From NCBI GenBank assembly GCA_017433825.1, contig JAFRGL010000022.1, positions 1 to 64,000 on the forward strand: a stretch of 64,000 bases of DNA. The letters are read 5' to 3'. This document shows, piece after piece, positions 25,568-41,740 of this stretch (its first letter is position 1; each line of letters begins with the position of its first letter). The translations under genes were made by a program, and so were the position numbers. The DNA comes from Eubacterium sp. Its GTDB lineage: Bacteria; Bacillota; Clostridia; Lachnospirales; Lachnospiraceae. The notes below the pieces were generated by a model. That model was not told the origin of the DNA, ran no database searches, and was given only the letters and a program-made list of their open reading frames with translations.

Positions 25568-27106
25568 ATGAAAGACATTCTTTATGAAACCTGCGAAAAA
25601 TGGGACGTTTTTGAACTCGCGTTTACCGGTAAAACCTCCGGCAACCCTTTTACCGATTATACGATACAGGCGGTATTTACGCACAAATGCGGCCGCACGG
25701 CCGTGGACGGTTTCTACGACGGGGACGGCGTCTATAAAGTCCGCTTCATGCCTTCCTTTACAGGCATCTATCATTACGAAGTAAAGGGCACGTTTTCCGA
25801 CAGGGAATATACCGGAACCTTTGCGGCTGAAGAGCCTTCCGCTTCCAACCACGGCCCGGTGAGGGTGGCCGGCCAGCATCATTTTGCCTATGAAGACGGT
25901 ACGCCATTCTATCCCATCGGCACCACCTGCTACGTCTGGGAACTGCAGTCCGACGCGCTTATCGAAGAAACCTTCAAATCCCTGAAACAAAGCGCCTTCA
26001 ACAAAATCCGTTTCTGCATTTTCCCGAAGCATTACGTCTACAATTTCGGCGAGCCCCGCTCCTACCCCTACGAAGGCACGCCCATGGATTCCTCCGTCCT
26101 GACGGAAGAAAATTTCCAGCAGTTCTCAATGCATCCGCAGGGAAATCATTTTGATTTCACCAGGTTTAACCCGGCGCATTTCCGGCACATCGAAACCTGC
26201 ATCAAGCGTCTGGGGGAAATGGGCATTGAGGCGGACATCATTGTCATGCACCCTTACGACCGCTGGGGTTTCTCCCATATGACGCAGGAGCAGGACGACC
26301 TCTACTGGAAATACGTCATTGCCCGTTTTGCGGCTTTCAGGAATGTATGGTGGGCATTCGCCAATGAATACGACCTGCTTTCGGACAAAACCGTTTCCGA
26401 CTGGGAGCGCTACGCAAAAATTGTCTGCAAAAAGGATCCCTACAACCATCTGAGGTCCATCCATAACTGCATGCAGATGTACGACCACACCAGGCCCTGG
26501 ATCACCCACTGCAGCATCCAGCGGCAGGATATCTACAAAACAGCGGAACTGACCAACGAATGGCGCATCCGCTTCGGCAAGCCGGTGGTTCTGGACGAAA
26601 TCGCCTACGAGGGAAATATCCAGCATGGCTGGGGCAATATCTCCGGTGAGGAAATGGTGCGCCGCTTCTGGGAAGGGGCTCTGCGCGGCGGCTATCCGGG
26701 CCACGGTGAGACGTACCTTTCCGAGGACAACATCCTCTGGTGGAGCCACGGCGGCACCTTAAAGGGAGAAAGCTGGAAAAGGTTCGGCTTCCTCCTGGAT
26801 GTTTTAAAGGAAACACCCGGGTACGGTCTGAAGCTTTCAGACAGCTGCGGCTGGGACGAGGTCTGCGCGGTTCCGGACATCACCACGGAAGCCTTTGCCC
26901 CTGTCAAAAGCTATTATCTGTACTATTACAGCTTTATGCGTCCTTCATGGAGGGAGTTTTATTTTGACGACAATACCCGCTTCCAGGTTTATGTCCTCGA
27001 CACCTGGAACATGACGAAAGAAGACGCGGGCATCCACTGCGGCAAATTCCGCATATCTCTTCCCGGAAGGCCGTATATGGCCATTCAGCTTCGGAAGGCT
27101 GACTGA
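25568..27106 (+). CDS. Glycoside hydrolase with DUF5060/DUF4038/DUF5605 domains
   Basis: 512 residues. An N-terminal beta-sandwich (DUF5060-like, about 3-90) precedes a TIM-barrel of the DUF4038 apiosidase-related clan, followed by a C-terminal DUF5605-type domain (about 430-512). Catalytic glutamates are likely Glu267 (WWAFANEYD) and Glu344 (VVLDEIAYEG). No signal peptide is seen, so it acts on imported oligosaccharides. The exact sugar is unknown. The ATG follows AAGGAGACC. A GPH-type sugar transporter gene lies 15 kb further on and could supply substrate, but linkage is not shown. Confidence 0.8.
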   Translation: MKDILYETCEKWDVFELAFTGKTSGNPFTDYTIQAVFTHKCGRTAVDGFYDGDGVYKVRFMPSFTGIYHYEVKGTFSDREYTGTFAAEEPSASNHGPVRVAGQHHFAYEDGTPFYPIGTTCYVWELQSDALIEETFKSLKQSAFNKIRFCIFPKHYVYNFGEPRSYPYEGTPMDSSVLTEENFQQFSMHPQGNHFDFTRFNPAHFRHIETCIKRLGEMGIEADIIVMHPYDRWGFSHMTQEQDDLYWKYVIARFAAFRNVWWAFANEYDLLSDKTVSDWERYAKIVCKKDPYNHLRSIHNCMQMYDHTRPWITHCSIQRQDIYKTAELTNEWRIRFGKPVVLDEIAYEGNIQHGWGNISGEEMVRRFWEGALRGGYPGHGETYLSEDNILWWSHGGTLKGESWKRFGFLLDVLKETPGYGLKLSDSCGWDEVCAVPDITTEAFAPVKSYYLYYYSFMRPSWREFYFDDNTRFQVYVLDTWNMTKEDAGIHCGKFRISLPGRPYMAIQLRKAD

Positions 27107-27179: not shown

Positions 27180-27884
27180 TTACCGGTTATCCATAACCTC
27201 CGTAATGCTTTCCCCGGCCACTTCCCAGGGCATCGCCTCCATGGCGTCCGTGATTTCGCGGATTTTCTGGAAGGGGATGGAAATGATGTGCATTCCCTCC
27301 GGGAAGGGTTTGAGCATCTTCTGCCCGAAGGCCATGCCGGCAATCATGTGATTGATTTTGCCGGAAATGAAGGGATATACCAGCTCCCAGGCGCAGGACA
27401 TGACCACATTGCCCTTGGACTCCCACAGGTCTCCGGAGAAATAGGTGTTCGCCCGCATGATTTTATCCGCCTGGTGCATGTCGCAGACCACAACAATCAC
27501 ATCCGGGTCAAATTCACACTTTGACAGGGGGCAGAATACCACGCAACGGTGGCATCCGAGCTCCAGCCTGGGCACCAGGTGATACAGACGTCCGTTGGCT
27601 GAGCAGTCATAAAAGGCACCGAGCTTTACACCTAAAGCGCCGCTTCCTTCTGCGGGGGGAATCGGCTCAAAACCCAGGAAGGCTTTGCCCACACAGCTGT
27701 CGTTTTCCGCTGTCACGCAGATACATTTATCTTCTTTCACAGCTTCGCTCATATACATGCAAAGGCTTTGCACCTTGTCCGTCCGTTCCGCCCATTCCGG
27801 GGGATCCAGGAGGAATTTTACTGCTACAGGCTGAATGTCAAGATTCAGTTTATCCAAAACGGCCCTTGTTCTGTCTGATAACAT
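27180..27884 (-). CDS. DUF169 domain protein
   Basis: 234 residues matching the DUF169 family in length and pattern: QPVAVKFLLDPPEW near the start, the cysteine-containing KCICVTAENDSCVGKAFLGF, and CHRCVVFCPLSKCEFDPDVIVVVCD. Several cysteines (CxxC-like RCVVFCPLSKC) suggest metal or flavin binding, but no biochemical role is established. AAGGAGATAAT precedes the start. It lies downstream of the first glycyl radical enzyme gene on the same strand without a terminator between, so it may be coexpressed with that enzyme. Confidence 0.85.
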   Translation of the reverse strand: MLSDRTRAVLDKLNLDIQPVAVKFLLDPPEWAERTDKVQSLCMYMSEAVKEDKCICVTAENDSCVGKAFLGFEPIPPAEGSGALGVKLGAFYDCSANGRLYHLVPRLELGCHRCVVFCPLSKCEFDPDVIVVVCDMHQADKIMRANTYFSGDLWESKGNVVMSCAWELVYPFISGKINHMIAGMAFGQKMLKPFPEGMHIISIPFQKIREITDAMEAMPWEVAGESITEVMDNR

Positions 27885-27944: not shown

Positions 27945-28113
27945 TGTATAAATCCGCATCGCTTCGTGCTGCGCACTCCCGCGCTACTGACATGAATTCG
28001 GACTTTACTCCTGCTTCGCAGGATCGTCCTCATTCATGTTATCGTCTCTAAAGCATAGCCTGATTTGCTTGCGAGCAATCAATCAGTCTCTGCTTTGAGA
28101 CTGGATTTATACA
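27945..28113 (-). repeat. Structured 3' repeat element downstream of GRE1
   Basis: TGTATAAATCC (27945-27955) is inverted exactly as GGATTTATACA (28103-28113), the second arm covering the GRE1 stop codon. In between are several hairpins, such as GATCCTGC/GCAGGA and CAGTCTCAAAGCAGAGACTG on the RNA strand. The distal 95 bp (27945-28038) are closely similar to 30738-30845, which follows GRE2. It looks like a dispersed repeat or a shared 3' UTR structure. Confidence 0.6.
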
Positions 28114-30563
28114 GAATGCTCAGCCCTTCGGATGATATCGTTCTGCATGGTTTCGGTCATATCCACGAAATACGCGGAAAAGCCGGCGATACGCACCACC
28201 AGGTTGTGGTAATCATCCGGGTTGGCCTGGGCTTTCCGGAGGGTTTCGCCGTCAACCACGTTATACTGCACTTCCACACCGCCGCCGTCGAAATAAGCCT
28301 TTGTCATGTCACGCAGTTTTTCTATGCCGCCTTCTTTGGCAAGGGCAGTCGGATGAATCTTCATATTCAGGGCGATGCCGTCCATAAACCGGCTGTTGTC
28401 CCAGTAAAGCGTGGAGTTGAATACGGCTGTGGGGCCGTTCACGTCCCTGCCCTGGGCAGGAGAAGTCGCATCTGCCAATGGATCCCCTGTCTTACGTCCG
28501 TCGGGAGTGGCCCAGGTCTTTGCGCCTTGCGGAATATGGTCAGCCGCGCCGAACATGCCGCATTTGTACACCTTGCAGAACTTTGTGGTAAAGTCTCTGG
28601 AGCAGTTGTAATACCAGTCGAAGACGTATTTCATTTCCTCGTCCGCGTAAGGATCCGCATTGCCGTAATGCGGGCACTCATGCATAATCTTCTGGCGGAG
28701 GGCTTCATTTTCCGCGCCTTCCCAGTTGGCCAGCAAAGCATCCAGCAGCTGTTTGCCGGTACAGATCTTCTTGTCATAGACAGCCCACTTGATGGCGGTT
28801 AAGGAATCACCCACGGTGGCGAGGCCTGTGGCTGTTCCGCCGTAGGAATTGTATTTCGCGCCGCCCTCGGAAACGTCCTTGCCGCTTTCCAGACAGCCTT
28901 CGGTGGAAATGGAAAGGTTCGGGAACGGGAAAAGCCTGTACTGTTCATGCTCTGCGTAGTTGTTCATGGAGGAAGACCAGGTCATCAGCCATTTGGTCAG
29001 CTTCTCAAAAGCCCTCTTCACGTCCTCGTAGGTTTCCATCTCGTAGAGATAGCCGGAGCGGTATTCCGGCGGCGCCTGCTGGTTCACGAAGGGATTGATG
29101 CCGTTGTTGATGGCGGTTACCAGGCATGCCGACCACCACAGGCCGTTGTGGCCCATGGGGATGCCGTTCGGGCAGGGATAGTCATTGCCGGAACCGGTGA
29201 TCTCCTGACAGCCGATGAAGGCAAAGTCACGGGCATCCTCCAGCGTAAAGCCTACCTCCCTCATGATAGCGGGGATAATCACCTCGTCATTCTGGATAAG
29301 GGGCAGGCCGCCCACGCGTCTGGAAGTCTCCAGCGCGCATTCCCACAGCTTGTCCGGTGTATTCTTGTTGATACGGATGGATACGGTGGGCTCATGCAGC
29401 TGCAGGCGCGCGATGCCCTCTAAAACCATGTAGGTAACCGGGTTGGAAGCGTCTTCACCGGTCTCCGGCACTACGCCGCCGATGGTGGTATGCTGATAGG
29501 CGTTTCCGATGCCGCCGGTCTTTGAAGTCTCGCCGAAAATGCCATGCCAGAAAATATTCATTTTCAAAAGATAGCCGTCAATGAGCTCCTGGGCTTTCTC
29601 CAGGGTCATGGTGCCCTCTTCCAGTTCTTTCTTCAGATACGGCCATACGCGGAAATCCAGCCGGCCCATGGAGGTAACGCCGGGGCCGTTGTCAATTCGC
29701 AGGAAGAAATGATACAGCATGTACTGCTGCAGGGCTTCCCAGAAGGTGCGGGCGGGCTTGTCAATAATCCAGGTCAGGCCTTCCGCCATCTTTGCGAACT
29801 CTTCCTTCTTTTCCGGCCTGGTCTCCTCTTCCGCAAGCTTTGCGGCAAGCTCGGCATAGCGGCGGGTCAATGTCATGGCGCCGTCGCAGGCCACGGTGCA
29901 TGCATGGTAGAACAGGTATTTGCCTGCTTCGTCTCCCATGATATTGCCTTTGTGGTCATCCAGCCAGTCCTGGGCGCGTTTGCGGATGGCGCCGTAACCC
30001 TGACGGAGGATGTGCTGATAGCCGGGGGTAAGATGTCCGGGCGGGAGAAGCACGGCCCAGCCTTCCGGACGGCCATAGGTTTCCACCTGCAGCTTAAGCA
30101 TTTCATCGATGCCTAAAGGATAATAGGTAAGGGGCCGTACATTGTGGAACGTATGGTTGGCTTCAGCGGTTATTTCCCGCAGCTCCTTTAAATCTTCCGG
30201 GGAAATGGCCAGCTTCTGGTGGGAATACTCCGGGTCATCGTCCGGCGCATGGTGCAGGCCGTCTTCACCGATGGGCCAGGTATTCTCAATGTCTGCCCGA
30301 AGCCATCTGTCGGCATCGGCGCCGCCCCAGCCTTTGTTGCCGAAATCGCCGAAGAAGTATTCGTCCTCCATGATGTGGATGGGCATTCTTTCAATCAGGT
30401 AGAGGGTTTCCATGGGTTTGGCCATGATGGGCGGGAAGTTTTTATACAGCGCTCTGGCTTCAAAACGGAGTCTTGATTTCACGGCATCGCCGACCATCAT
30501 CCTGTCCCTGGTTTTGGCGCGCAGTCTCTGTATCCTTTCTGCTATCGGTCTGAATTCATACAT
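28107..30563 (-). CDS. Glycyl radical enzyme, paralogue 1 of 3 (substrate unknown)
   Basis: 818 residues from ATG 30563, chosen because AAGGAG lies 9 bp before it and because the paralogues start MYEFRP at the same site. It has the pyruvate-formate-lyase-type barrel: GRLDFRVWPYLKKELEEG, active-site loop GCQE with Cys452 and Glu454, and radical motif RIAGF with Gly794 near the C-terminus. Known dehydratase/lyase branches have GCVE at the Cys; the Gln here is unusual. The enzyme must be activated by a radical-SAM activase, not present in the window. It is about 80% similar to paralogues 2 and 3. The DUF169 gene follows. Confidence 0.93.
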   Translation of the reverse strand: MYEFRPIAERIQRLRAKTRDRMMVGDAVKSRLRFEARALYKNFPPIMAKPMETLYLIERMPIHIMEDEYFFGDFGNKGWGGADADRWLRADIENTWPIGEDGLHHAPDDDPEYSHQKLAISPEDLKELREITAEANHTFHNVRPLTYYPLGIDEMLKLQVETYGRPEGWAVLLPPGHLTPGYQHILRQGYGAIRKRAQDWLDDHKGNIMGDEAGKYLFYHACTVACDGAMTLTRRYAELAAKLAEEETRPEKKEEFAKMAEGLTWIIDKPARTFWEALQQYMLYHFFLRIDNGPGVTSMGRLDFRVWPYLKKELEEGTMTLEKAQELIDGYLLKMNIFWHGIFGETSKTGGIGNAYQHTTIGGVVPETGEDASNPVTYMVLEGIARLQLHEPTVSIRINKNTPDKLWECALETSRRVGGLPLIQNDEVIIPAIMREVGFTLEDARDFAFIGCQEITGSGNDYPCPNGIPMGHNGLWWSACLVTAINNGINPFVNQQAPPEYRSGYLYEMETYEDVKRAFEKLTKWLMTWSSSMNNYAEHEQYRLFPFPNLSISTEGCLESGKDVSEGGAKYNSYGGTATGLATVGDSLTAIKWAVYDKKICTGKQLLDALLANWEGAENEALRQKIMHECPHYGNADPYADEEMKYVFDWYYNCSRDFTTKFCKVYKCGMFGAADHIPQGAKTWATPDGRKTGDPLADATSPAQGRDVNGPTAVFNSTLYWDNSRFMDGIALNMKIHPTALAKEGGIEKLRDMTKAYFDGGGVEVQYNVVDGETLRKAQANPDDYHNLVVRIAGFSAYFVDMTETMQNDIIRRAEHSV

Positions 30564-30626
30564 TTCATTCTTCTCCTTTTCCATGTATTCTTAATCGTCA
30601 GACTGTTTATGTATTTTACTGGTTTT

Positions 30627-30655
30627 ATTGTATATTTTTCCTTCACAGGAGTCAA
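30627..30655 (-). promoter_or_regulatory. GRE1 promoter
   Basis: TTGACT (30655-30650), a 17-bp spacer and TACAAT (30632-30627) on the minus strand, about 60 nt before the ATG at 30563. The layout equals those before GRE2 and GRE3, all with TACAAT. It shows that GRE1 can be expressed alone. Confidence 0.7.
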
Positions 30656-30688
30656 TGAGGACAGCGGGTTTAATGCTATTTTTCACAC

Positions 30689-30718
30689 AAAAAAGGAGGC
30701 TGCTTAAAGCAGCCTCCT
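30689..30718 (-). terminator. Terminator after GRE2 and its 3' repeat
   Basis: AGGAGGCTGC (30694-30703) pairs with GCAGCCTCCT (30709-30718) around TTAAA. On the minus strand T6 follows. It closes the GRE2 transcript before the GRE1 promoter. Confidence 0.85.
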
Positions 30719-30737
30719 GTTAAAGTTTTTAAACAGC

Positions 30738-30845
30738 TGTATAAATCCGCACCGCTTCGTGCTGCGCACTCCCGCGCTGCCAACAGAAACTCGGATTTTA
30801 CGTCTGCTTTGCTTACGCTTGCAGACTCATCCTCATTCCTGTTGT
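30738..30845 (-). repeat. Structured 3' repeat element downstream of GRE2
   Basis: Second copy of the element after GRE1. The first 40 bp (from 30738: TGTATAAATCCGC, CGCTTCGTGCTGCGCACTCC) differ from copy one at a single base, and the rest aligns with several changes. Only a 7-bp inverted arm remains at 30910-30916. The spacer from 30846 to 30909 shows no gene. Confidence 0.6.
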
Positions 30846-30909
30846 GCCGCCAATTGTCCATCCAGCCCGGTATGCAAGCATCCGGCCTGTCTGCCCAATT
30901 GTCAGCGAC

Positions 30910-33366
30910 TTATACAGAATGCTCCGCACGGCGGATGATATCATCCTGCATGGTCTCGGTCATATCTACGAAGTATGCGGAGAAGCCGGCGATACGGACT
31001 ACCAGGTTGTGGTAATCATCCGGATTGTTCTGCGCGTCTCTGAGCATCTTCGCGTCAACAACGTTGTACTGGACCTCAACGCCGCCCTGATCGAAGTAAG
31101 CCTTGGTCATATCGGCAAGCTTCTTGATGCCGCCTTCCTTGGCAAGGGCAGTCGGATGAATCTTCATGTTCAGGGCAATACCGTCCATGAAACGGCTGTT
31201 GTCCCAGGAAAGCATGGAGTTGAATACGCCGGTAGGTCCGTTCACATCACGGCCCTGAGCGGGTGAAGTAGCATCTGCCAGCGGTTCGCCGGTCTTACGT
31301 CCGTCCGGGGTAGCCCATGTGCAGGCGCCCTGCGGAACGTGGTCGGCAGCACCGAACATACCGCACTTGTAAACCTTGCAGTACTTGGTGGTGAAGCCTC
31401 TGGTGCTCTCATAGTAGTAGTCGAACAGGTACTTCTGCGCTTCGTCAGCGTACGGATCGCCGTTGCCGTAGTGCGGGCACTCATGAAGGATTCTCTGACG
31501 GAGAGCTTCATTCTCAGCGCCTTCCCAGTTGGATACTACAGCGTCAAGCAGCTGCTTGGCGGTGCAGATCTTCTTGTCGAATACTGCCCACTTGATAGCG
31601 GTTAAGCTGTCTGCAGCAGTGGCAACGCCTGTAGCGGTTCCGCCGTAGGAGTTGTACTTCGCGCCGCCTTCGGATACGTCCTTGCCGCTTTCCATACAGC
31701 CTTCGGTGGAGATGGAAAGGTTCGGGAACGGGAACAGTCTGTACTGCTCATGCTCTGCGTAGTTGTTCATGGAGGAGGACCATCTGAACATCCAGCCGGC
31801 CAGTTTCTCAAAGGCCTTCTTGACGTCTTCATAGGACTCCATCTCATACAGGTAACCGGAACGGTACTCTTCAGGAGCCTGCTGGCCGCTCATCGGGTTG
31901 ATGCCGTTGTTGATGGCGGTTACCAGGGTTGCAGCCCACCAGATGCCGTTATGGCCCATCGGGATGCCGTTCGGGCACGGATAGTCGTTGCCGGAACCGG
32001 TGATTTCCTGACATCCGATGAAGGCAAAGTCACGGGCGTCTTCGATGGTGAAGCCGAGCTCTCTTACGATAGAGGGAACGATAACTTCGTCGTTCTGGAT
32101 AAGCGGCAGGCCGCCTACTCTTCTGGAGGTCTCCAGTGCGCACTCCCACAGCTCATCCGGGGTATCCTTGGTGATACGGATGGAAACGGTGGGCTCATGC
32201 AGCTGCAGTCTGGCGATACTTTCCAGAACCATGTAGGTAATGGGGTTGGAAGCATCTTCGCCGGTCTCCGGAACCATGCCGCCGATGGTGGTATGCTGGT
32301 AAGCATTGCCGATACCGGTGGTCTTTGCGGTCTCGCCGAAGTTGCCGCCGTAGAACAGGTTCAGTTTCAGGATGTAGCCGTCGATATATTCCTGAGCCTT
32401 CTCAAGGGTCATGGTGCCTTCGTCAAGCTCTTTCTTCAGATACGGCCACAGACGGTAGTCAAGACGTCCCATGGATTCAACGCCGGGGCCGTTGTCTACG
32501 CGCAGGAATACATGATACAGAAGGTACTGCTGAGCAGCTTCCCAGAAGGTTCTGGCCGGCTTGTCGATAATCCAGTCAAGGCCTTCCGCCATCTTTTCGA
32601 GTTCAGCCTTGCGCTCGGGATCTTCACAGGCAGCGGCTTTCTCTTTGCAGAGGTCTCTGTAACGGCGGGTAAGGGTCATGGCGCCGTCGCAGGCACCGGT
32701 AGCAGCATGATAGAACAGGTACGGACCTACTTCATCGCCCATGATGTTACCCTTATGCGCATCCAGCCAGTCCTGAGCCTGTTTGCGGATCGCGCCGTAG
32801 CCCTTGTGGATGATGTGCTGATGGCCGGGGGTAAGATGTCCGGGAGGAAGAAGGGGCGGGAAACCGCCGATACGGCCGTAGGTTTCCAGCTGCAGCTTCA
32901 TCATATCCTCAATGCCCTGGGGATAGTAAATCAGCGGGCGGATATTGTGGAAGGTATGCATGGCTTCCATGGTCATCTCACGGAGGGCTTTCACATCTTC
33001 GGGAGAAATGGCCAGCTTCTGATGGGAATAATCGGGGTTGTCGTCCGGAGCATGATGAAGTCCGTCTTCGCCGATGGGCCAGGTGTTCTCAATGTCGGCT
33101 CTCAGCCACATCTGACCATTGGCAGCACCCCAATGCTTGTTGCCCATATCGCCTACGAAATACTCGTCGTCTTCCAGGCCGATAGGCATATTGGAAATAA
33201 CGTACAGGGACTCGCTGGGTTTCGCCATGATGGGCGGGAAGTTCTTGTACATAGCCTGGGCTTCGAGTTTCAGACGGGCCTTCTCAGCGTCGGCAATCAT
33301 CATTCTGTCACGGGTTTTGTCACGGAGTCTCTGGATTCTCTCCGCAACAGGTCTGAATTCATACAT
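30910..33366 (-). CDS. Glycyl radical enzyme, paralogue 2 of 3 (substrate unknown)
   Basis: 818 residues from ATG 33366 behind AAAGGAGA. Domain order is the pyruvate-formate-lyase barrel then the glycyl radical domain. Key residues are Cys452 and Glu454 in GCQEITGSGNDY, and Gly794 in RIAGFSAYFVDM. QLHEPTVSIRI and GRLDYRLWPYLKK are typical family motifs. The loop after the active Cys has Cys464 (YPCPNG), shared with paralogue 1 but Ser in paralogue 3. The protein is cytosolic and oxygen-sensitive by family. A reaction (lyase, dehydratase or decarboxylase) cannot be assigned. The serine-hydrolase gene lies upstream. Confidence 0.93.
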   Translation of the reverse strand: MYEFRPVAERIQRLRDKTRDRMMIADAEKARLKLEAQAMYKNFPPIMAKPSESLYVISNMPIGLEDDEYFVGDMGNKHWGAANGQMWLRADIENTWPIGEDGLHHAPDDNPDYSHQKLAISPEDVKALREMTMEAMHTFHNIRPLIYYPQGIEDMMKLQLETYGRIGGFPPLLPPGHLTPGHQHIIHKGYGAIRKQAQDWLDAHKGNIMGDEVGPYLFYHAATGACDGAMTLTRRYRDLCKEKAAACEDPERKAELEKMAEGLDWIIDKPARTFWEAAQQYLLYHVFLRVDNGPGVESMGRLDYRLWPYLKKELDEGTMTLEKAQEYIDGYILKLNLFYGGNFGETAKTTGIGNAYQHTTIGGMVPETGEDASNPITYMVLESIARLQLHEPTVSIRITKDTPDELWECALETSRRVGGLPLIQNDEVIVPSIVRELGFTIEDARDFAFIGCQEITGSGNDYPCPNGIPMGHNGIWWAATLVTAINNGINPMSGQQAPEEYRSGYLYEMESYEDVKKAFEKLAGWMFRWSSSMNNYAEHEQYRLFPFPNLSISTEGCMESGKDVSEGGAKYNSYGGTATGVATAADSLTAIKWAVFDKKICTAKQLLDAVVSNWEGAENEALRQRILHECPHYGNGDPYADEAQKYLFDYYYESTRGFTTKYCKVYKCGMFGAADHVPQGACTWATPDGRKTGEPLADATSPAQGRDVNGPTGVFNSMLSWDNSRFMDGIALNMKIHPTALAKEGGIKKLADMTKAYFDQGGVEVQYNVVDAKMLRDAQNNPDDYHNLVVRIAGFSAYFVDMTETMQDDIIRRAEHSV

Positions 33367-33420
33367 AATGTTGCTTCTCCTTTTTAAAAAGTTTCTGATG
33401 AGACATTTTTTTACACGTTA

Positions 33421-33449
33421 ATTGTAAACGATTATAAGTAAAACGTCAA
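33421..33449 (-). promoter_or_regulatory. GRE2 promoter
   Basis: TTGACG (33449-33444), a 17-bp spacer and TACAAT (33426-33421) on the minus strand; the leader to the ATG at 33366 is about 50 nt. A match of both boxes with GRE3 and a near match with GRE1 suggests a common ancestor of all three control regions. Confidence 0.7.
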
Positions 33450-33524
33450 TAAATATCGGCAAAAAAAGGGAGTGCCGAAAGGCAGGCGCACAGGCCGGTT
33501 TTTTTCCGCTTTCAAACGGTATTC

Positions 33525-34898
33525 CTACAGCTTTCTGCAGGAAAAACCGCTGTATGTGACACAGCCGTCCCCGAATTTCAGTTCCAGCATTCCGCCTTTG
33601 CGGCCGAACTCTTCTTCCCCGATGGGATACAGACGGAAAGTCATTTCATCCCCGTCTTCGTCTATGGCCCCGGCATAAAGTTCCCCGTCTTTTATGAAAA
33701 CTTCATCGAGGATGAGATCTGTGTCCTCCGGATGCTCATATTTCCCGCAGAAGCTCTCCCACTTCGACCTGTCGGGATTCTTAACCTCGATATCCTCGAT
33801 GGTAACGACAGGTTCGGGTTTTCTGTCCCTTGCAATTGCTTCCATGCCGTCCCAGAAGCTCAAATACGCTCTGACGTCCCTGTAATCCCGGCTGGCGAGT
33901 ATCACAAGAACCCTGTCTGCATCGATAAAGCGCTCGAACCAGGTAGCAACTCCCGGCATGCCGCCGCTGTGGCTGACGACAAGCCCGAGATTTTCGTCAC
34001 GGCCGACGGCCCAGCCGAATCCGTAGCCCAGCCCGTCGTCCTCATCGTAAACGGCATCCCCGCCGTTATTCAGCTTCCCGGGGGTGTACATGATATTCTG
34101 CTCTTCAGGAGTAAGCACCTTTCCTTCCCGCAGTGCCGAATCCCAGCGGAGCATGTCGAAAATGGTGGAATACACGTAATCATCGCCGTTCAGGCCGTCA
34201 AAAGCGGTCACAACACCGTATTTTTCAGAGTCGATGTCGGCCACCCATCTTCCGTCTTCGAATACCGCTGCCCGGGCATAGTTTTCAAACGGAACGCCGT
34301 CCCTGCGGATATGGCAGCAGCGGGTAGAGGTCATCCCTGCAGGTTCAAAGATGTTCTTTTGGAGGAACTCTTCATAGGGGATGCCGGAGAGCCGTTCCAC
34401 CAGCAGCGCCAGTAGGTTGTAGCCGGTGTTGGAGTATTCCAGGCCTTCCCCGGGGGCAAAATACGGTTTTGCTTCGGTTTCACGGAGAAACCGCAGGATT
34501 TCGTCATTGCCGGGGACCCGTTTTTCTTCCTTCCAGATCCTGATAAACCATTCATCATCGTCAAAGTAATCGGGAATGCCGCTTGTGTGGTTCAAAAGGT
34601 GCCGGACCGTTACACCCGGGTACGGGATTTCCGGGAAAAACTTCGTAATTTCATCCTCCGGGCAAAGAAGCCCCTGCCGCACAAGCAGCATGACAGCCGC
34701 CGACGTGAAAGTCTTGCTGACGGAAGCCAGCTGAAAAACAGTATCTTCCGTGACAGGCAGCGTATCCTCGGGATCCCGGAAGCCGGAAACGCCTTTGGAC
34801 ACAACTTCTCCCTTTTCCGCATAGAGCCATGCCCCGTTGAAGAGGTCCTTTTCATTCAGCGTACGGACCAGTTCCTGCATCATTGCATGCTTATCCAT
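33525..34898 (-). CDS. Serine hydrolase of the beta-lactamase/PBP4* family
   Basis: 457 residues. The class-C-beta-lactamase-type active site is complete: SxxK in QLASVSKTFTS (Ser59, Lys62), the YxN motif YSNTGYN, and the third motif HSGGMPG. A C-terminal beta-rich extension (about 370-457) follows. Such proteins are esterases, D-aminopeptidases or penicillin-binding-like enzymes rather than resistance enzymes in most cases. No signal peptide is visible. It is inserted between GRE2 and GRE3, reading the same way, but a functional link is not evident. AGGGGGAATC precedes the start. Upstream, TTGAAT-N17-TATCAT may be the promoter. Confidence 0.85.
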   Translation of the reverse strand: MDKHAMMQELVRTLNEKDLFNGAWLYAEKGEVVSKGVSGFRDPEDTLPVTEDTVFQLASVSKTFTSAAVMLLVRQGLLCPEDEITKFFPEIPYPGVTVRHLLNHTSGIPDYFDDDEWFIRIWKEEKRVPGNDEILRFLRETEAKPYFAPGEGLEYSNTGYNLLALLVERLSGIPYEEFLQKNIFEPAGMTSTRCCHIRRDGVPFENYARAAVFEDGRWVADIDSEKYGVVTAFDGLNGDDYVYSTIFDMLRWDSALREGKVLTPEEQNIMYTPGKLNNGGDAVYDEDDGLGYGFGWAVGRDENLGLVVSHSGGMPGVATWFERFIDADRVLVILASRDYRDVRAYLSFWDGMEAIARDRKPEPVVTIEDIEVKNPDRSKWESFCGKYEHPEDTDLILDEVFIKDGELYAGAIDEDGDEMTFRLYPIGEEEFGRKGGMLELKFGDGCVTYSGFSCRKL

Positions 34899-35051
34899 TC
34901 GTATGATTCCCCCTGCTGTTTTTATTGTAGTACCGGATTATGATACTATACAATAAGGCCGGATTCAACCTCATGCGTTATATTAGGGCGGAATCTTTCG
35001 CCGAACCGGCCCGGCCTTTTCGTAATTTGCCGCAGGTATTGCTGCTGTTTT

Positions 35052-35092
35052 GAAAAAAGAAAAACAGCATGACCCGCAGATCATGCCGTTTT
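35052..35092 (-). terminator. GRE3 terminator
   Basis: AAAACAGCATGA (35061-35072) pairs with TCATGCCGTTTT (35081-35092) with one mismatch; the minus-strand tail is CTTTTTTC. It lies 70 bp after the GRE3 stop. The remaining 34899-35163 gap holds only the hydrolase promoter and no gene. Confidence 0.75.
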
Positions 35093-35163
35093 TCAAATAA
35101 TAAAACTTCCTGACAGGGGAGGCCTTAAGGCACTCCCCTTTAAATTTTATGACAGGTAAGGGA

Positions 35164-37626
35164 TTATACCTGATGCTCCGCACGGCGGATGATGTCTTCC
35201 TGCATGTTCTCGGACATATCCACGAAGTATGCGGAGAAGCCTGCAATACGGACTACCAGGTTGTGGTACTCATCCGGATTCTGCTGTGCGGCACGTAAGG
35301 TCTTGCCGTCTACGACGTTGTACTGAACCTCAACGCCGCCCTGATCGAAGTAAGCCTTGGTCATGTCACGCAACTTCTCGATGCCACCTTCCTTGGCAAG
35401 GGCTGACGGATGAATCTTCATGTTAAGGGCAATACCGTCCATGAAACGGCTGTTGTCCCAGGAAAGCATGGAGTTGAACACGCCGGTGGGGCCGTTCACG
35501 TCACGTCCCTGTACGGGAGAGGTAGCGTCGGCAATGGGCTCGCCTGCCTTACGTCCGTCCGGGGTAGCCCAGGTGGTGGCACCCTGCGGAACGTGGTCGG
35601 CGCCGCCGAACATACCGCACTTGTAAACCTTACAGAACTTGGTGGTGAAGCCTCTGGTGCAGTTATAGTACCAGTCGAATACATACTTCATCTCCTGGTC
35701 AGCATAGTCATCGCCGTTGCCGTAATGCGGGCATTCATTGATGATTCTCTGACGGAGGGCTTCATTTTCCGGGCCTTCCCAGTTGGCCAGAACAGCATCC
35801 AGCAACTGCTTGCCGGTGCAGATCTTCTTGTCATATACAGCCCACTTGATAGCGGTTAAGGAATCGCCTACGGTAGCAAGACCGGTAGCGGTTCCGCCGT
35901 AGGAGTTGTACTTCGCGCCGCCTTCGGAAACGTCCTTGCCCTGTTCCATGCAGCCGACGGTGGAGATGGAAAGGTTCGGGTACGGGAACAGCCTGTACTG
36001 CTCATGCTCGGCGTAGTTGTTCATGGAGGAGGACCATCTGAGCATCCAGTAGGAAAGCTTCTCAAACGCACGTTTTACGTCCTCATAGGATTCCATCTCA
36101 TACAGGTAGCCGGAACGGTACTCTTCGGGAGCCTGCTGGTCGGGCGTCCTGGGGTTGATTCCGTTGTTGATGGCAGCCACCAGGGTTGCGGACCACCAGA
36201 TGCCGTTATGGCCCATGGGGATACCGTTGGGTGACGGATAGTCATTGCCGGAACCGGTGATCTCCTGACAGCCGATGAAGGCGAAGTCACGGGCATCTTC
36301 CAGTTCGAAGCCAAGCTCTCTTACAATGGAGGGAACGATAACTTCATCGTTCTGGATAAGCGGCAGGCCGCCTACTCTCCTGGAGGTCTCAAGAGCGCAC
36401 TCCCACAGCTTGTCGGGGGTGTCCTTGTTGATACGGATGGATACGGTGGGCTCATGCAGCTGCAGACGCGCGATGCCTTCCAGTACCATGTAGGTTACGG
36501 GGTTGGAAGCATCCTCGCCGGTCTCCGGAACAACGCCGCCGATGGTGGTATGCTGGTAAGCATTGCCGATACCAACGGTCTTTGCGGTCTCGCCGAAGTT
36601 GCCGCCGTACATAAGGTTCAGTTTCAGGAGCATGCCGTCTACCAGTTCCTGGGCATATTCCAGGGTCATGGTGCCTTCATCCAGCTCTTTCTTCAGATAC
36701 GGCCATACACGGTAGTCGAAACGTCCCATGGAGGTAACGCCCGGGCTGTTGTCGATTCGAAGGAAGATATGGTACAGGAGGTACTGCTGTACAGCCTCCC
36801 AGAAGGTTCTGGCCGGATTCTCAACGATCCAGTCAAGGCCTTCGGCCATCTTCAGAAGCTCAGCCTTCTTCTCATCCGTTACGCCTTCTGCCGCAGCTTT
36901 CTCTCTGCACAGGTCCGCATAACGGCGGGTCAGGGTCATGGCGCCTTCGCAGGCAACGGTGGCGGCATGGTAGAACAGGTACTTGCCGACTTCATCGCCC
37001 ATGATGTTGCCCTTATGTGCATCCAGCCAGTCCTGGGCCTGTTTGCGGATTGCGCCGTAGCCCTTGTGGATGATGTGCTGGTTGCCGGGGGTAAGATGTC
37101 CGGGAGGAAGCAGAACTGCCCAGCCGCCGGGACGTCCGTAGGTTTCAAGCTGAAGCTTGGTCATTTCCTCAATACCCTGCGGATAGTAGGTCAGCGGGCG
37201 GATATTGTGGAAGGTGTGCATCGCTTCCTTCATGATATCGCGGAGTTCTTTTAAGTCTTCCGGAGAAATGCAAAGCTTCTGGTGGGAATAATCGGGATCG
37301 TCATCGGGACAATGATGAAGTCCGTCCTCGCCGATGGGCCAGGTGTTCTCGATGTCGGCTCTCAGCCAGCCTTCACCGGAAGCTGCGCCCCAGTGCTTGT
37401 TGCCCAGGCCGCCGACGAAATACTCGTCTTCTTCCAGGTCGATGGGCATCTTGGAAATAACGTAAAGGGACTCGCAGGGTTTCGCCATGATGGGCGGGAA
37501 GTTCTTGTACATGGCAATCGCTTCCTGTTTCAGACGGGGTTTAACCGCATCCGCAATCATCATTCTGTCACGGGTTTTGTCACGTAATCTCTGGACTCTC
37601 TCCGTAACCGGTCTGAATTCATACAT
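35164..37626 (-). CDS. Glycyl radical enzyme, paralogue 3 of 3 (substrate unknown)
   Basis: 820 residues from ATG 37626 behind GAAGGAGAA. Same architecture as the other two, with Cys453 and Glu455 in GCQEITGSGNDY and Gly796 in RIAGFSAYFVDM. Two one-residue insertions (near 240 and 490) account for its length. It differs from its sisters in some cavity-side positions, for instance YPSPNG in place of YPCPNG and NECPHYGNGDDY in place of HECPHYGNGDPY, which may reflect a different substrate. It has its own promoter and terminator, so it is a single-gene unit. No activase gene is adjacent. Confidence 0.93.
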   Translation of the reverse strand: MYEFRPVTERVQRLRDKTRDRMMIADAVKPRLKQEAIAMYKNFPPIMAKPCESLYVISKMPIDLEEDEYFVGGLGNKHWGAASGEGWLRADIENTWPIGEDGLHHCPDDDPDYSHQKLCISPEDLKELRDIMKEAMHTFHNIRPLTYYPQGIEEMTKLQLETYGRPGGWAVLLPPGHLTPGNQHIIHKGYGAIRKQAQDWLDAHKGNIMGDEVGKYLFYHAATVACEGAMTLTRRYADLCREKAAAEGVTDEKKAELLKMAEGLDWIVENPARTFWEAVQQYLLYHIFLRIDNSPGVTSMGRFDYRVWPYLKKELDEGTMTLEYAQELVDGMLLKLNLMYGGNFGETAKTVGIGNAYQHTTIGGVVPETGEDASNPVTYMVLEGIARLQLHEPTVSIRINKDTPDKLWECALETSRRVGGLPLIQNDEVIVPSIVRELGFELEDARDFAFIGCQEITGSGNDYPSPNGIPMGHNGIWWSATLVAAINNGINPRTPDQQAPEEYRSGYLYEMESYEDVKRAFEKLSYWMLRWSSSMNNYAEHEQYRLFPYPNLSISTVGCMEQGKDVSEGGAKYNSYGGTATGLATVGDSLTAIKWAVYDKKICTGKQLLDAVLANWEGPENEALRQRIINECPHYGNGDDYADQEMKYVFDWYYNCTRGFTTKFCKVYKCGMFGGADHVPQGATTWATPDGRKAGEPIADATSPVQGRDVNGPTGVFNSMLSWDNSRFMDGIALNMKIHPSALAKEGGIEKLRDMTKAYFDQGGVEVQYNVVDGKTLRAAQQNPDEYHNLVVRIAGFSAYFVDMSENMQEDIIRRAEHQV

Positions 37627-37751: not shown

Positions 37752-40526
37752 TTAATAATCTTTACTGTTTTTTCTTCTTTTATTTTTCTTTAAAATGACA
37801 ACCGCGGCTGCGGCTGCCGCAGCCGGAATAAAAAGCAGAAGTTTTCCCGGACCGGCATGATTTACTGCCGGACCTTCCGCCGGCAGATCCGGCCTTGCAG
37901 GTGTTTTTTCCGCCTGCCCTTTTCTTCCGGAGGGCGTTTCCTGCGTCTGAATACCGGTTTCATGCGCGGTTTCTTTTTCCGGCATCATATCCGGACCGGA
38001 TGCAGCGGTCTCCTCTTGTTTTTCTTCCGATTTCTCCTCACTGGGAACGTTCTGTGCATTTCCCCTGTAAACCAGAATATCCGGCAGAGAGAAAGAGGCC
38101 GTATTCCCTGCCGCATCTTCCGCCGTAAACACGAAGCTTCTGCGTGCGGCTTCGGAAAACAGCACAAAATGTATCCTTCCGTTTTCACAAAGCAGACTTT
38201 CCGCCGGATTCTCCGCATTGACAAATGCGCCGTCCCCGTTCAGGTAAACCTTCTTCGCTTTTCCTTCCTCCTCAACCGTAAGCCTGACGACACCGCTGCT
38301 GTCCGACAGCTGCAGGCAGAATTCCGCGTAATCCGCCTTCACTTCCGTCCCGCCGGTTAGTCCGGAGACAGAGACGGAAGGGGGCACGGTATCATAAGTA
38401 AACCGTACCGGTGCGGATATGACACTGCCGGATACATTGCCGGCCGCGTCCACGGAAACTACGTTGACGCTGTACCTGCCGTCCCGGCTGAAAAGTGCGG
38501 TATCAATCCGGCTTGTGACGGTGATATATCCGTCCTCTTCCGTTATGGTTTCAATGTAGTCAGACCCTTCCTCCAGCACATGGACCGTGCCGTTTACGGA
38601 GTATGAGATTTCCCTCACCTGCAGAGGGCTTAAGTTCCTCTCCGTAATCACAATCTCCTCCGGCAGCCTGTTCAGAAACGTCCCGGAGACAACATCCGGG
38701 TCCTGCAGCGCGAAGGCCGACCCCTGCCTGTTCAGGGTGAAATCAAAGCTTCCGATACCGGTATTGCCTGCCATGTCGGAGGCGGAGGCTGTCAGAATAT
38801 AACGCGCATCCGGCAGGCTGTCCAGCCCTGTAAGGGGTAAGAAAGCCTCCCCGCCGTCTGTTTCAACGGAAACAAGGCCGGAAATATCCACGCTTTCCCC
38901 ATTCACATCCGTCAGGCCGACCGCTGCGGAATATCCCACCAGATACCGGTCTCTGATCCGCGCAAGAGCGGAGGCCAGGCTGTGAAAATCCCTGCCCTCG
39001 TCAGGAGGGAAGAATTCCACCAGGGGCGGGGCGGTATCGATGATAAAGCTGTCCGTCTGCACAGGTTCGGACATATTGCCCGCCATATCGGTGCAGGAAA
39101 CCTTCAAATCGTAAGCACCGTCTTTTTCAAACAACACCTTCCTGATATATGCGCCGCCGGAAAAAGTCCAGTCCGATACAACAGGCGCTTCCCCCTCCGG
39201 GAAAATGATGTCCGTAAGCTCCGGACTGAAATTTGCTTCCGAAACGGTGATAACCGCGCACCTGCTGCTGTTGAAAAACAGCACATTTGCCCCAGGCACA
39301 TCTTCAAAGCCGATATGCACTGCCGGGGGTGTTGTGTCAATGACAAAAGAGCCCGAAGATATCGGATGAGATACATTTCCGGCAAGGTCTTTTCCGGTCA
39401 CTGTCAGGCTGTAAACCCCGTCAGACACAAAATGCACAGCGGCCGCCCACCCGGCTCCGGTCCGGTACCAGCCGGTGCTTTCGTACCCCGCGCCTGTTGA
39501 GGAACTGACCGATATTTCCGAAGAGGGATCGAAATGACTGTCCGTATATTCCAGGTACAGCGTTTTCCCCGTTCTGAAATAAATCCCGTTTTCTGCGCCG
39601 CTTTTATCAAAAGCCAGGCTTCCGGAAGGCGCGGAAGTATCCAGAGAGACCGTAATCTGCGCGAAACCGGTATTGCCCGCGTAATCCGCTGCAGAGACGG
39701 TAAGGATAATGCCGTCTCCGTTAAACCCGGCTTTATCAGGTTCGATTCGTCTGTTTACGGAAAACACGCCTTTCTCCTTAAGGAAGCTTTCCCGCAGCAG
39801 CTCTTCCGTTCTTCCGTCTGCCGGATTATAAATACTGACCGACAGTTCCCGGATGGGGGCAAGGCCGCCCTCTTTTCCCGCTGAAACGGTGAAGGCAAAA
39901 GAATCCCCGCTGCCGTAAATGCCGGACGGCGAAGCCGGGGCAGCATCTGCGGCCAGTGCAGGCTTCGGGCCTTCCGTATCGATGGCAAAACGCAGCGTCA
40001 GCCTGTCTTCCCCGCCCATATCCTCCGTCATATACACGGCAGACACTTCATACGCGCCGTCATACTCCGGCGCGCCGCCGAACACCAGGGTTACCTGAGA
40101 CCGGTCCTCATTTATCTCTGCCTTCGCAAGGCCTGTTTCATCCATTTCCTCCGGTGTCTTTGAAAGCAGTTCCTCCGCTGAATAAACGCGGTTCTCCCCG
40201 CCGTCTTTCGCAACGGAAAACACAAGCCTGTCTGCCTGCAGGGGTTCTTCCGCCTCCGTCTGCCATCTTAAAACAGTTTTCCCGTAATAATAACCGTCTC
40301 CCGAATATCCTTCGTCCGGTATGATTTCAAAGGAATAAATGCTGTCCTCCTCTTCTTCCGGCTCATCTGCCGGATCCGGCAGCATTTCTCCGGTTTCCGG
40401 TTCATCTGCAGAAACGGTTTCTTCCTCTGCCTGAGCCGGCACGTCAGCAAAGCGGGCGGCAAGCAGCACAAACGCCAGCAGTCCCGCGGCAGTCCGCAAG
40501 GGTTTCCGTGTCTTTTTTCTGTTCAT
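37752..40526 (-). CDS. Large surface protein with bacterial Ig-like repeats
   Basis: 924 residues from ATG 40526, which shares ATGA with the kinase stop. A signal peptide (KTRKPLRTAAGLLAFVLLAARFADVPA) is followed by an acidic linker. At least five Ig-like repeats follow, recognisable by IDTTPPAVHI/IDTAPPLVEF-type joints and AADYAGNTGF/CTDMAGNMSEP turns. A proline/glutamate-rich stalk, one transmembrane helix (LLLFIPAAAAAAAVVIL) and KKNKRRKNSKDY end the protein. It is therefore membrane-anchored without a sortase motif. The tight coupling to the kinase gene suggests a common function at the cell surface. Ligand unknown. Confidence 0.8.
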   Translation of the reverse strand: MNRKKTRKPLRTAAGLLAFVLLAARFADVPAQAEEETVSADEPETGEMLPDPADEPEEEEDSIYSFEIIPDEGYSGDGYYYGKTVLRWQTEAEEPLQADRLVFSVAKDGGENRVYSAEELLSKTPEEMDETGLAKAEINEDRSQVTLVFGGAPEYDGAYEVSAVYMTEDMGGEDRLTLRFAIDTEGPKPALAADAAPASPSGIYGSGDSFAFTVSAGKEGGLAPIRELSVSIYNPADGRTEELLRESFLKEKGVFSVNRRIEPDKAGFNGDGIILTVSAADYAGNTGFAQITVSLDTSAPSGSLAFDKSGAENGIYFRTGKTLYLEYTDSHFDPSSEISVSSSTGAGYESTGWYRTGAGWAAAVHFVSDGVYSLTVTGKDLAGNVSHPISSGSFVIDTTPPAVHIGFEDVPGANVLFFNSSRCAVITVSEANFSPELTDIIFPEGEAPVVSDWTFSGGAYIRKVLFEKDGAYDLKVSCTDMAGNMSEPVQTDSFIIDTAPPLVEFFPPDEGRDFHSLASALARIRDRYLVGYSAAVGLTDVNGESVDISGLVSVETDGGEAFLPLTGLDSLPDARYILTASASDMAGNTGIGSFDFTLNRQGSAFALQDPDVVSGTFLNRLPEEIVITERNLSPLQVREISYSVNGTVHVLEEGSDYIETITEEDGYITVTSRIDTALFSRDGRYSVNVVSVDAAGNVSGSVISAPVRFTYDTVPPSVSVSGLTGGTEVKADYAEFCLQLSDSSGVVRLTVEEEGKAKKVYLNGDGAFVNAENPAESLLCENGRIHFVLFSEAARRSFVFTAEDAAGNTASFSLPDILVYRGNAQNVPSEEKSEEKQEETAASGPDMMPEKETAHETGIQTQETPSGRKGQAEKTPARPDLPAEGPAVNHAGPGKLLLFIPAAAAAAAVVILKKNKRRKNSKDY

Positions 40527-41740
40527 CTCTTCTGTCCTTTCTGCCATGCGTAAACCGCACGCACCATGTTTTCAGCCGTGGAAAGCGCTGCTGTCAGGCT
40601 CTCCTCCCGTTCATGCCCCGAAGCCGTCTTTGCTGCCTTGTCAAGCCGGGCCAGCAGCTCCTCCTCCGGTATTCCCGCCGCGGCATAGTCAGCACAGTTT
40701 TCATAAATGTCCGCTGCCGCCGACATCCCGATATAAAAACCTCCGTCCGTCCCGGCAGGCGCAAGGCTTTGCGCCGCAGGATTATCAAACCGCTCTCCCG
40801 TTTCCGCCGCACAGTACGCATCCGGCACCGCTTCCGTCCCGGCACCGGCGGAAAGTCCGGAAGAAAATACGGCCGCGGCTGCCAGAACAGGCACCAGAGC
40901 AGCCGCCCTTTTCAGGGCTTTTGCAGGCCTGTGCTTTTCATCCGCCTGTTCCGCGGCAGAAAGCAAGGAAAGCAGCATCCGGCAGTCTTCCGGACGTTTC
41001 TCCGGGTTAACCTCCGTACAGGCCCTGACGATTCTCAGCAGGCGGCACGCGCGCCCTTCTTCCTCCCTGCCGTATATTTTCCTTAAATACGGTCGGAAAA
41101 AACAGCCCTTCTTCAGTCCGAGCATGGCTTTTGCCGTCATCCCGGCCGCATAGATATCCGTACGGGGAGAAAGATGTCCGTAACCGCCGTAAAGCTCCGG
41201 CGCGGCAAAAGGAGGCGTTGCAGGCATGCCCCTGTCGGAAAGCGGCTCCGATAACAGCCTGCAGCTGCCAAAATCAATAAGCAGTATCCTCCCGTCTTCC
41301 GCTGCAAGCACATTGCCGGGTTTGATATCCAGATGAAGGATTCCTGCCGTATGCAGCGCTTCCGCTGCTTCAGCCAGTTCCCGCATTACGGTAAAAACGG
41401 CAGTAAGCGGAAAAGGCCTGCCCGGCCGCCGCTTTATCAGTTCCTCCAGCGTAAAACCTTCTGCGAATTCCATGGCTTCCCAGACAGCGCCTTCTTCCGC
41501 GTATACGGAATAAACCGAAGGCAGGTTTGCCGTCGGAAGCTTTGCGATGGTTTCTATCATGTTCATATAGTTTTCCGGGGATATGCCGGCCGATTTGAAA
41601 AATGAAAAGCCGGTTCTTCGAAGTGCCGCGATATGATGTTCTTCTGTGTCAAAGACTTTATAAATACAGCTGGTTCCGCCGCGGATCGCAGGCGCAAGGA
41701 CAAGATATCTACCGGAAATCATCTCATTCGGTAAATACAT
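40523..41740 (-). CDS. Serine/threonine-kinase-like membrane protein
   Basis: 405 residues. The kinase domain (about 8-270) has a glycine-rich start (AIRGGTSCIYKVFD), catalytic loop ILHLDIKPGNVLAAEDG and DFG motif (LLIDFGSCR). GMPATPPFAAPELYGG is an activation-segment end, and DIYAAGMTAKAML and PEKRPEDCRML are further family motifs. The beta3 lysine of VAIK is not obvious: the aligned stretch is HIAALRR. A hydrophobic span (AAALVPVLAAAAVFSSGLSA, about 285-305) leads to a 95-residue outer part without PASTA repeats. It could be an atypical or weak kinase. It is coupled to the Ig-like protein by an ATGA overlap. Confidence 0.82.
   Translation of the reverse strand: MYLPNEMISGRYLVLAPAIRGGTSCIYKVFDTEEHHIAALRRTGFSFFKSAGISPENYMNMIETIAKLPTANLPSVYSVYAEEGAVWEAMEFAEGFTLEELIKRRPGRPFPLTAVFTVMRELAEAAEALHTAGILHLDIKPGNVLAAEDGRILLIDFGSCRLLSEPLSDRGMPATPPFAAPELYGGYGHLSPRTDIYAAGMTAKAMLGLKKGCFFRPYLRKIYGREEEGRACRLLRIVRACTEVNPEKRPEDCRMLLSLLSAAEQADEKHRPAKALKRAAALVPVLAAAAVFSSGLSAGAGTEAVPDAYCAAETGERFDNPAAQSLAPAGTDGGFYIGMSAAADIYENCADYAAAGIPEEELLARLDKAAKTASGHEREESLTAALSTAENMVRAVYAWQKGQKR

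Follow-up and report, generated by a model that had tools for sequence, protein, structure and literature searches.

Three neighbouring genes of a Eubacterium sp., a relative of rumen bacteria, encode closely related glycyl radical enzymes (GREs), and we consider it likely that these are functional GRE eliminases, each probably forming its own transcription unit, which would be activated in trans by a radical-SAM activase encoded elsewhere in the genome. GREs need radical-SAM activation, and they are usually assigned, expressed and assayed together with an adjacent activase. The surprising part of the finding is its scale: the genome encodes 28 GREs in 2.6 Mb, all 28 of which keep the radical Gly and the Cys, and five activases. 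The unusually large GRE set and the handful of activators indicate that a single activator probably serves many of these enzymes.

The GRE1–3 locus

The window, that is, the whole 64,000-nucleotide stretch analysed here, comprises positions 1–64000 of contig C22 of G000, a 2.6-Mb MAG of 25 contigs that is 92.7% complete. The locus contains the following features:

25568–27106, plus strand: putative glycoside hydrolase (apiosidase-like PF13204, DUF5060 and DUF5605)
27180–27884, minus strand: DUF169 protein (PF02596), coming after GRE1
27949–28109, minus strand: Clostridiales-1 RNA (RF01699), 99.7 bits, starting at the GRE1 stop codon
28107–30584, minus strand: GRE1, 825 aa, with GCQE and RIAGFSAYF, of the CXE eliminase type
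30627–30655, minus strand: promoter-like TTGACT-17-TACAAT before GRE1, consensus match only
30694–30718, minus strand: terminator-like hairpin of 11 pairs with a T run, following GRE2 and its RNA, consensus match only
30740–30914, minus strand: Clostridiales-1 RNA (RF01699), 78.7 bits, starting 2 nt before the GRE2 stop codon
30910–33366, minus strand: GRE2, 818 aa, the reference for residue numbering and the subject of the AlphaFold2 model
33421–33449, minus strand: promoter-like TTGACG-17-TACAAT before GRE2, consensus match only
33525–34898, minus strand: serine beta-lactamase-fold hydrolase (PF00144, penicillin-binding-protein-like), separating GRE2 and GRE3
35059–35094, minus strand: terminator-like hairpin of 16 pairs with a T run, following GRE3, consensus match only
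35164–37626, minus strand: GRE3, 820 aa
37717–37745, minus strand: promoter-like TTGACG-17-TACAAT before GRE3, consensus match only
42048–43472, plus strand: MFS_2 (sugar symporter type) transporter

The three GREs (the trio) are uninterrupted open reading frames on the minus strand. All three proteins contain the two domains of the GRE superfamily, the PFL-like barrel (PF02901, 404–429 bits) and the Gly-radical domain (PF01228, 97–100 bits), each above its cut-off, and also its catalytic Cys and its radical Gly in an RVxG[YF]-type loop. The first-pass annotation had described a tandem array of close paralogues of 818–820 residues with characteristic radical motifs. GCQE and RIAGFSAYF are indeed present in every member, and pairwise identities of 82–86% bear out the relationship; the stated size holds for GRE2 and GRE3 and fails for the longer GRE1, while the array consists of three neighbouring minus-strand GREs with the PF00144 gene intervening between the second and the third. 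Since each GRE has its own TTGAC(G/T)-17-TACAAT site, and terminator-like hairpins follow GRE3 and GRE2, these consensus matches suggest three separate transcription units. A protein-kinase-domain gene at 40523–41740 (minus strand) has a perfect promoter consensus in front of it; such kinase genes lie near GREs on two contigs, the other being at C16:74001–76088 of G000.

Both Clostridiales-1 RNAs exceed the Rfam gathering score of 48 bits. Four of the five G000 copies above this score begin no more than 6 nt from where a GRE gene ends, and a start within 10 nt of a GRE end was observed for 3 of 6 copies in G001, 1 of 2 in G005 and 0 of 4 in G003. Together, 8 of 17 copies above the gathering score in these four genomes start at GRE stop codons, a count in which the copies are not independent and may have been duplicated along with the GREs. 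The RNA is not GRE-specific, giving 14–44 matches in GRE-poor congeners, and at E≤1e-9 it occurs in 13 of 391 genomes of the class, including G000. This orphan RNA family generally abuts stop codons. We examined 61 copies above the gathering score, out of 148 listed; in 42 of them an open frame of 80 codons or more terminates no further than 15 nt from the RNA 5' end, against 17 of 463 controls whose position was shifted by 300–900 nt. In 30 of these 42 copies the stop codon shares nucleotides with the best outer stem identified, and outward pairing past the Rfam ends reaches at least 3 in 24 of the 61 copies, against 8% of 233 slid controls. In a 2010 table, Clostridiales-1 is listed as probably an RNA and probably not cis-regulatory (PMC2864571, the part of the paper available to us).

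Active sites and divergence of the three paralogues

The CXE motif is described as a hallmark of eliminases (PMC7077986, PMC8473560), and His160 and Glu436 of the eliminase HypD as essential (PMC7077986), in the accessible portions of these papers. All three trio proteins contain CXE, as CQE at residues 452–454, together with His177. By mapping HypD and glycerol dehydratase (GD) residues by hand onto GRE2 numbering from alignments, we placed HypD His160 at His177 and Glu436 at Glu454. Gly794 is present throughout the trio, in place of the Ala, Ser or Thr of aminoacyl radical enzymes.

The remaining pocket differs from those of known GRE eliminases. Specifically, HypD Asp278, Asp339, Ser334, Tyr450 and Thr645 correspond to Gly295, Ala355, Thr350, His472 and Ala673 of GRE2, and the Cys loop differs by an insertion of 4 residues relative to HypD and of 7 relative to GD. 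Overall identity to glycerol dehydratase (1R8W), propanediol dehydratase (5I2A), HypD (6VXC) and CutC (5FAU) is 25–29%. Assignment of the trio to HypD was rejected on scores of 398–405 against 1100 bits and on G, A and G/T/V at the sites of Asp278, Asp339 and Ser334. CutC, HpsG, HpfG, IAD, HPAD and PFL were likewise rejected, all scores being far under the NCBIfam curated cut-offs. A B12-independent glycerol/propanediol dehydratase was rejected on the Asn473, Val296 and Gly295 that occupy the positions of GD Asp447, Ser282 and His281; GD Phe333 aligns to residue 350. As judged by the NCBIfam equivalog cut-offs given here, no trio member is a confident match to a GRE subfamily of defined substrate. 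The trio appears to comprise GRE eliminases of an uncharacterised 'GCQE' subfamily, the reaction type being read from the aligned residues. The AlphaFold2 model of GRE2 (pLDDT 78.6, pTM 0.84; low confidence in loops 349–351 and 459–472) gives full-length matches to GRE structures, and no eliminase is prominent in the structure search.

Across 13 trio-clade GREs, residues 177, 295, 296, 358, 452–454, 472 and 794 are invariant, while residues 355, 356, 473 and 673 vary. Within the trio, 15 sites have three states, two of them constant across species. One of the 15 is residue 350, aligned to a substrate contact, which is Gly, Thr and Val in GRE1, GRE2 and GRE3, respectively, and Ala in the eight other members outside the trio orthologues. 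It is unchanged in the orthologues of GRE1 and GRE3 in RUG14126 (G001), a separate MAG of the same genus; the partial GRE2 orthologue ends earlier.

RUG14126, labelled uncultured Lachnospiraceae, is with three MAGs labelled Oscillospiraceae the closest named kin of the trio; two of the latter three originate from the rumen and omasum of water buffalo. Each of the three GREs has an orthologue in RUG14126, at 98.2% identity for GRE1 (dN/dS 0.02), 95.1% over 344 codons for the partial GRE2 (dN/dS 0.08) and 94.6% for GRE3 (dN/dS 0.07). The trio is under purifying selection. The orthologues are nearer to each other than the paralogues are, and the duplications seem older than the species split, in agreement with a dS of about 1.0 between GRE1 and the other two copies. 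GRE2 and GRE3 differ by a dS of 0.47, not above the orthologue range of 0.40–0.63, so this pair, with a dN/dS of 0.20, either arose recently or was homogenised.

These data bear on two readings of the trio. That the copies are redundant, serving dosage or differential expression of one activity on one substrate from separate promoters, is a real possibility: the catalytic residues of GRE1–3 are identical, the proteins are 82–86% identical, each has its own promoter-like site, and GRE2 and GRE3 are no more diverged at synonymous sites than orthologues are. However, all three copies are retained in RUG14126 with orthologues closer than paralogues, the GRE2–GRE3 dN/dS exceeds that of the orthologues (0.02–0.08), and one of the 15 three-state sites lies at the aligned substrate contact. 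Separate substrates for the trio members are plausible on this pattern. The earlier proposal of three substrate specificities thus gains a suggestive sign from residue 350 and none from the catalytic residues.

The neighbouring genes offer hints to the substrate. The putative glycoside hydrolase has one PDB match, 4N0R, and in RUG14126 the GRE3 orthologue has an 80% identical counterpart of it as a neighbour. The GRE1–DUF169 pair is retained there too (DUF169 98.7% identical), and a second DUF169 gene adjoins GRE C19_112581 in G000. A paralogue of the MFS_2 transporter is located between the two GREs of contig C6. Near other GREs of the genome we found FMN/FAD enoate-reductase-like enzymes, URO-D-like proteins (one of four profile-scanned, the group defined by BLAST), an arabinofuranosidase C-terminal domain and POR subunits. 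These neighbours hint weakly that the trio substrate might be a small hydroxylated compound, perhaps from plant material.

Activases and the GRE expansion

No activase had been noted anywhere in the window, and this is borne out: none of the five TIGR02494 activases above cut-off in G000, and none of its 25 PF04055 radical-SAM matches, is on contig C22. Four of the five activases, at C19:55169, C11:131034, C17:25526 and C17:76823, adjoin other GREs, and the fifth, at C19:135795, has no GRE nearby. In the family, first-look counts among the matches listed for 120 genomes of at least 90% completeness (G000 included) gave 28 GRE candidates for G000, against a median of 2 and a maximum of 17 for the other 119, 109 of which have at most five. 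GRE matches are uneven within the genus, numbering 22, 15 and 23 in G001, G003 and G005 (some being fragments) and 0, 1 and 1 in G002, G004 and G006; the three Oscillospiraceae-labelled MAGs have 10–12 each, fragments counted. TIGR02494 activases above cut-off number 5, 8 and 6 in G001, G003 and G005, and 4, 6 and 5 in G041–G043, plus one weaker match apiece. The GRE-rich family member G021 has 15 activases for 15 listed GREs, two of which lie on one contig with the same scores, perhaps as an assembly duplicate. An activase lies within 3 kb of 4 of the 28 GREs in G000, against 13 of the 15 listed in G021 (Fisher p 5e-6).

Scored singly, one of the 28 GREs passes the cut-off of a named NCBIfam GRE subfamily. 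This is C17_77834, as HpfG ((2S)-3-sulfopropanediol dehydratase; 1016.9 against 1000 bits), for which the runner-up C17_23024 scores 935.4 bits and the trio 371–379 bits; in the part of the scoring that covers matches at E≤1e-150, none reaches a cut-off among the matches listed. The gene at C17:77834–80365 probably encodes an HpfG sulfopropanediol dehydratase and is accompanied by an activase of its own, which points to sulfonate use. Additionally, eight more GREs, seven from one clade, occupy 41 kb at C19:74250–115028, with flavin enoate-reductase-like and SPASM radical-SAM genes nearby and no TIGR02494 activase in between.

An activase may be missing from the assembly, given that the MAG is 92.7% complete and in 25 contigs. 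It is nevertheless unlikely that every trio member once had its own activase, now lying in the unassembled part of the genome. Scaled to completeness, the expected number of missing activases is below one; RUG14126 shows the same pattern of few activases and many GRE matches; activases are also outnumbered by GRE matches in G003, G005 and G041–G043; and the trio is internal to its contig, flanked by over 20 kb of sequence in each direction.

We therefore compared the phylogenies of the two protein families. From G000, G001, G003, G005 and G041–G043 we collected 114 GRE and 46 activase open reading frames, duplicates and fragments included; the trees cover 37 activases and the 94 GREs that reach 600 aa. 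The distance matrices of adjacent activase–GRE pairs agree (n=29, Mantel r 0.86, p 1e-4), also for non-redundant pairs with less than 70% identity in both proteins (n=17, Mantel r 0.66, p 1e-4). The activase phylogeny largely follows the GRE clades. The trio sits in a 58-row GRE clade ('clade III', with GCQE and GCVE groups), to which an activase clade of 21 rows corresponds (support 100/99). In G000, 18 clade III GREs face two activases of the matching clade. Within clade III the activases are not sorted by GCQE and GCVE, as the GCQE-adjacent activase of G003 clusters with GCVE-adjacent ones.

The search of the genome for an orphan activase yielded C19:135795–136823, one of the two clade-matched enzymes, which has no GRE within 6 kb in G000 or, at 96% identity, in RUG14126. 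The other, C19:55169–56140, lies 94 bp from GRE C19_52592, a GCQE-clade member 48% identical to the trio. A polytomy in the activase tree leaves both as possible trio partners, and CxxxCxxC is retained in both and in all 18 activases compared from G000, G001 and G003. The same activase clade includes an enzyme of the congener G003, 67% identical to the orphan, whose gene is divergently oriented to that of a GRE with 66% identity to GRE2, 268 bp away. Of the 13 trio-clade rows that reach 600 aa, this is the single case in which a GRE adjoins an activase; none was found beside the trio orthologues in RUG14126, where contigs are short, or beside three trio homologues in the Oscillospiraceae-labelled MAGs. 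An activase does stand beside a relative of the paralogues, once, an arrangement that the first-pass annotation had named as contrary to its reading.

Two observations run the other way. Under sharing, the radical domain might be expected to stay constant, but its conservation excess, 13.3 points for clade III pairs of G000 versus 12.9 for clade III GREs with their own activase, shows no such extra conservation. Clade matching also does not explain every GRE, since C7_35398 and C19_106387 have no clade-matched activase in G000. Taken together, the prediction of a shared distant activase for the trio, as the first-pass annotation had supposed, is well supported by the comparison of five activases with 28 GREs and by the activase tree.

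It is very unlikely that a non-TIGR02494 radical-SAM protein, such as the SPASM enzyme C19:115236–116315 close to the GRE cluster of C19, serves as the activator of the orphan GREs. Some of the 25 radical-SAM matches do lie close to GREs, but none is on the trio contig, and the two GRE-near proteins scanned, a SPASM enzyme and a protein with a Radical_SAM_N2 domain, are of types that to our knowledge do not act as GRE activases. That the trio copies are decaying or inactive is hardly credible, as only the missing local activase speaks for it, against the low dN/dS of the orthologues and the retained catalytic residues.

Proposed activation in trans and its implications

In the trans-activation model that we favour, C19:135795–136823, C19:55169–56140 or both would install the glycyl radical of the trio, with the candidate partners chosen by clade membership and their action on all three enzymes presumed. 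The standard GRE cycle would then be expected, in which the Gly794 radical generates a Cys452 thiyl radical and this a substrate radical, which may undergo 1,2-elimination aided by Glu454 and His177.

Activases that serve more than one radical enzyme have been described. E. coli PflA reportedly serves both PflB and TdcE. Threonyl radical enzymes likewise occur as two per activase (PMC11528403, the part accessible to us). Unlike these systems, G000 has a broad clade of 18 GREs, mostly not adjacent to an activase, for two activases. Separately, three GRE homologues of G003 (C34:25662–28079, C34:35803–38181 and C31:2412–4793) carry Thr in place of the radical Gly (RVSTW, RVATY) and in this resemble the threonyl radical enzymes described in the accessible part of PMC11528403; for two of the three, an activase lies no more than 90 bp away.

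A wider reading of this rumen lineage, which we put forward tentatively, is that its GREs form a large, divergent catabolic repertoire, 27 of the 28 lying outside any named NCBIfam subfamily, in which clade-level 'hub' activases allow GREs to be gained by duplication without activase gain; the trio may be a recent radiation of three substrate pockets under the same activase. If one activase serves the whole clade, many apparently orphan GREs of MAGs could be tested with a single partner, and a large group of anaerobic bond-cleaving enzymes, as yet unassigned, would be added to those of the rumen. The trio would then offer a natural test of the pocket residues that set substrate choice behind constant activation.
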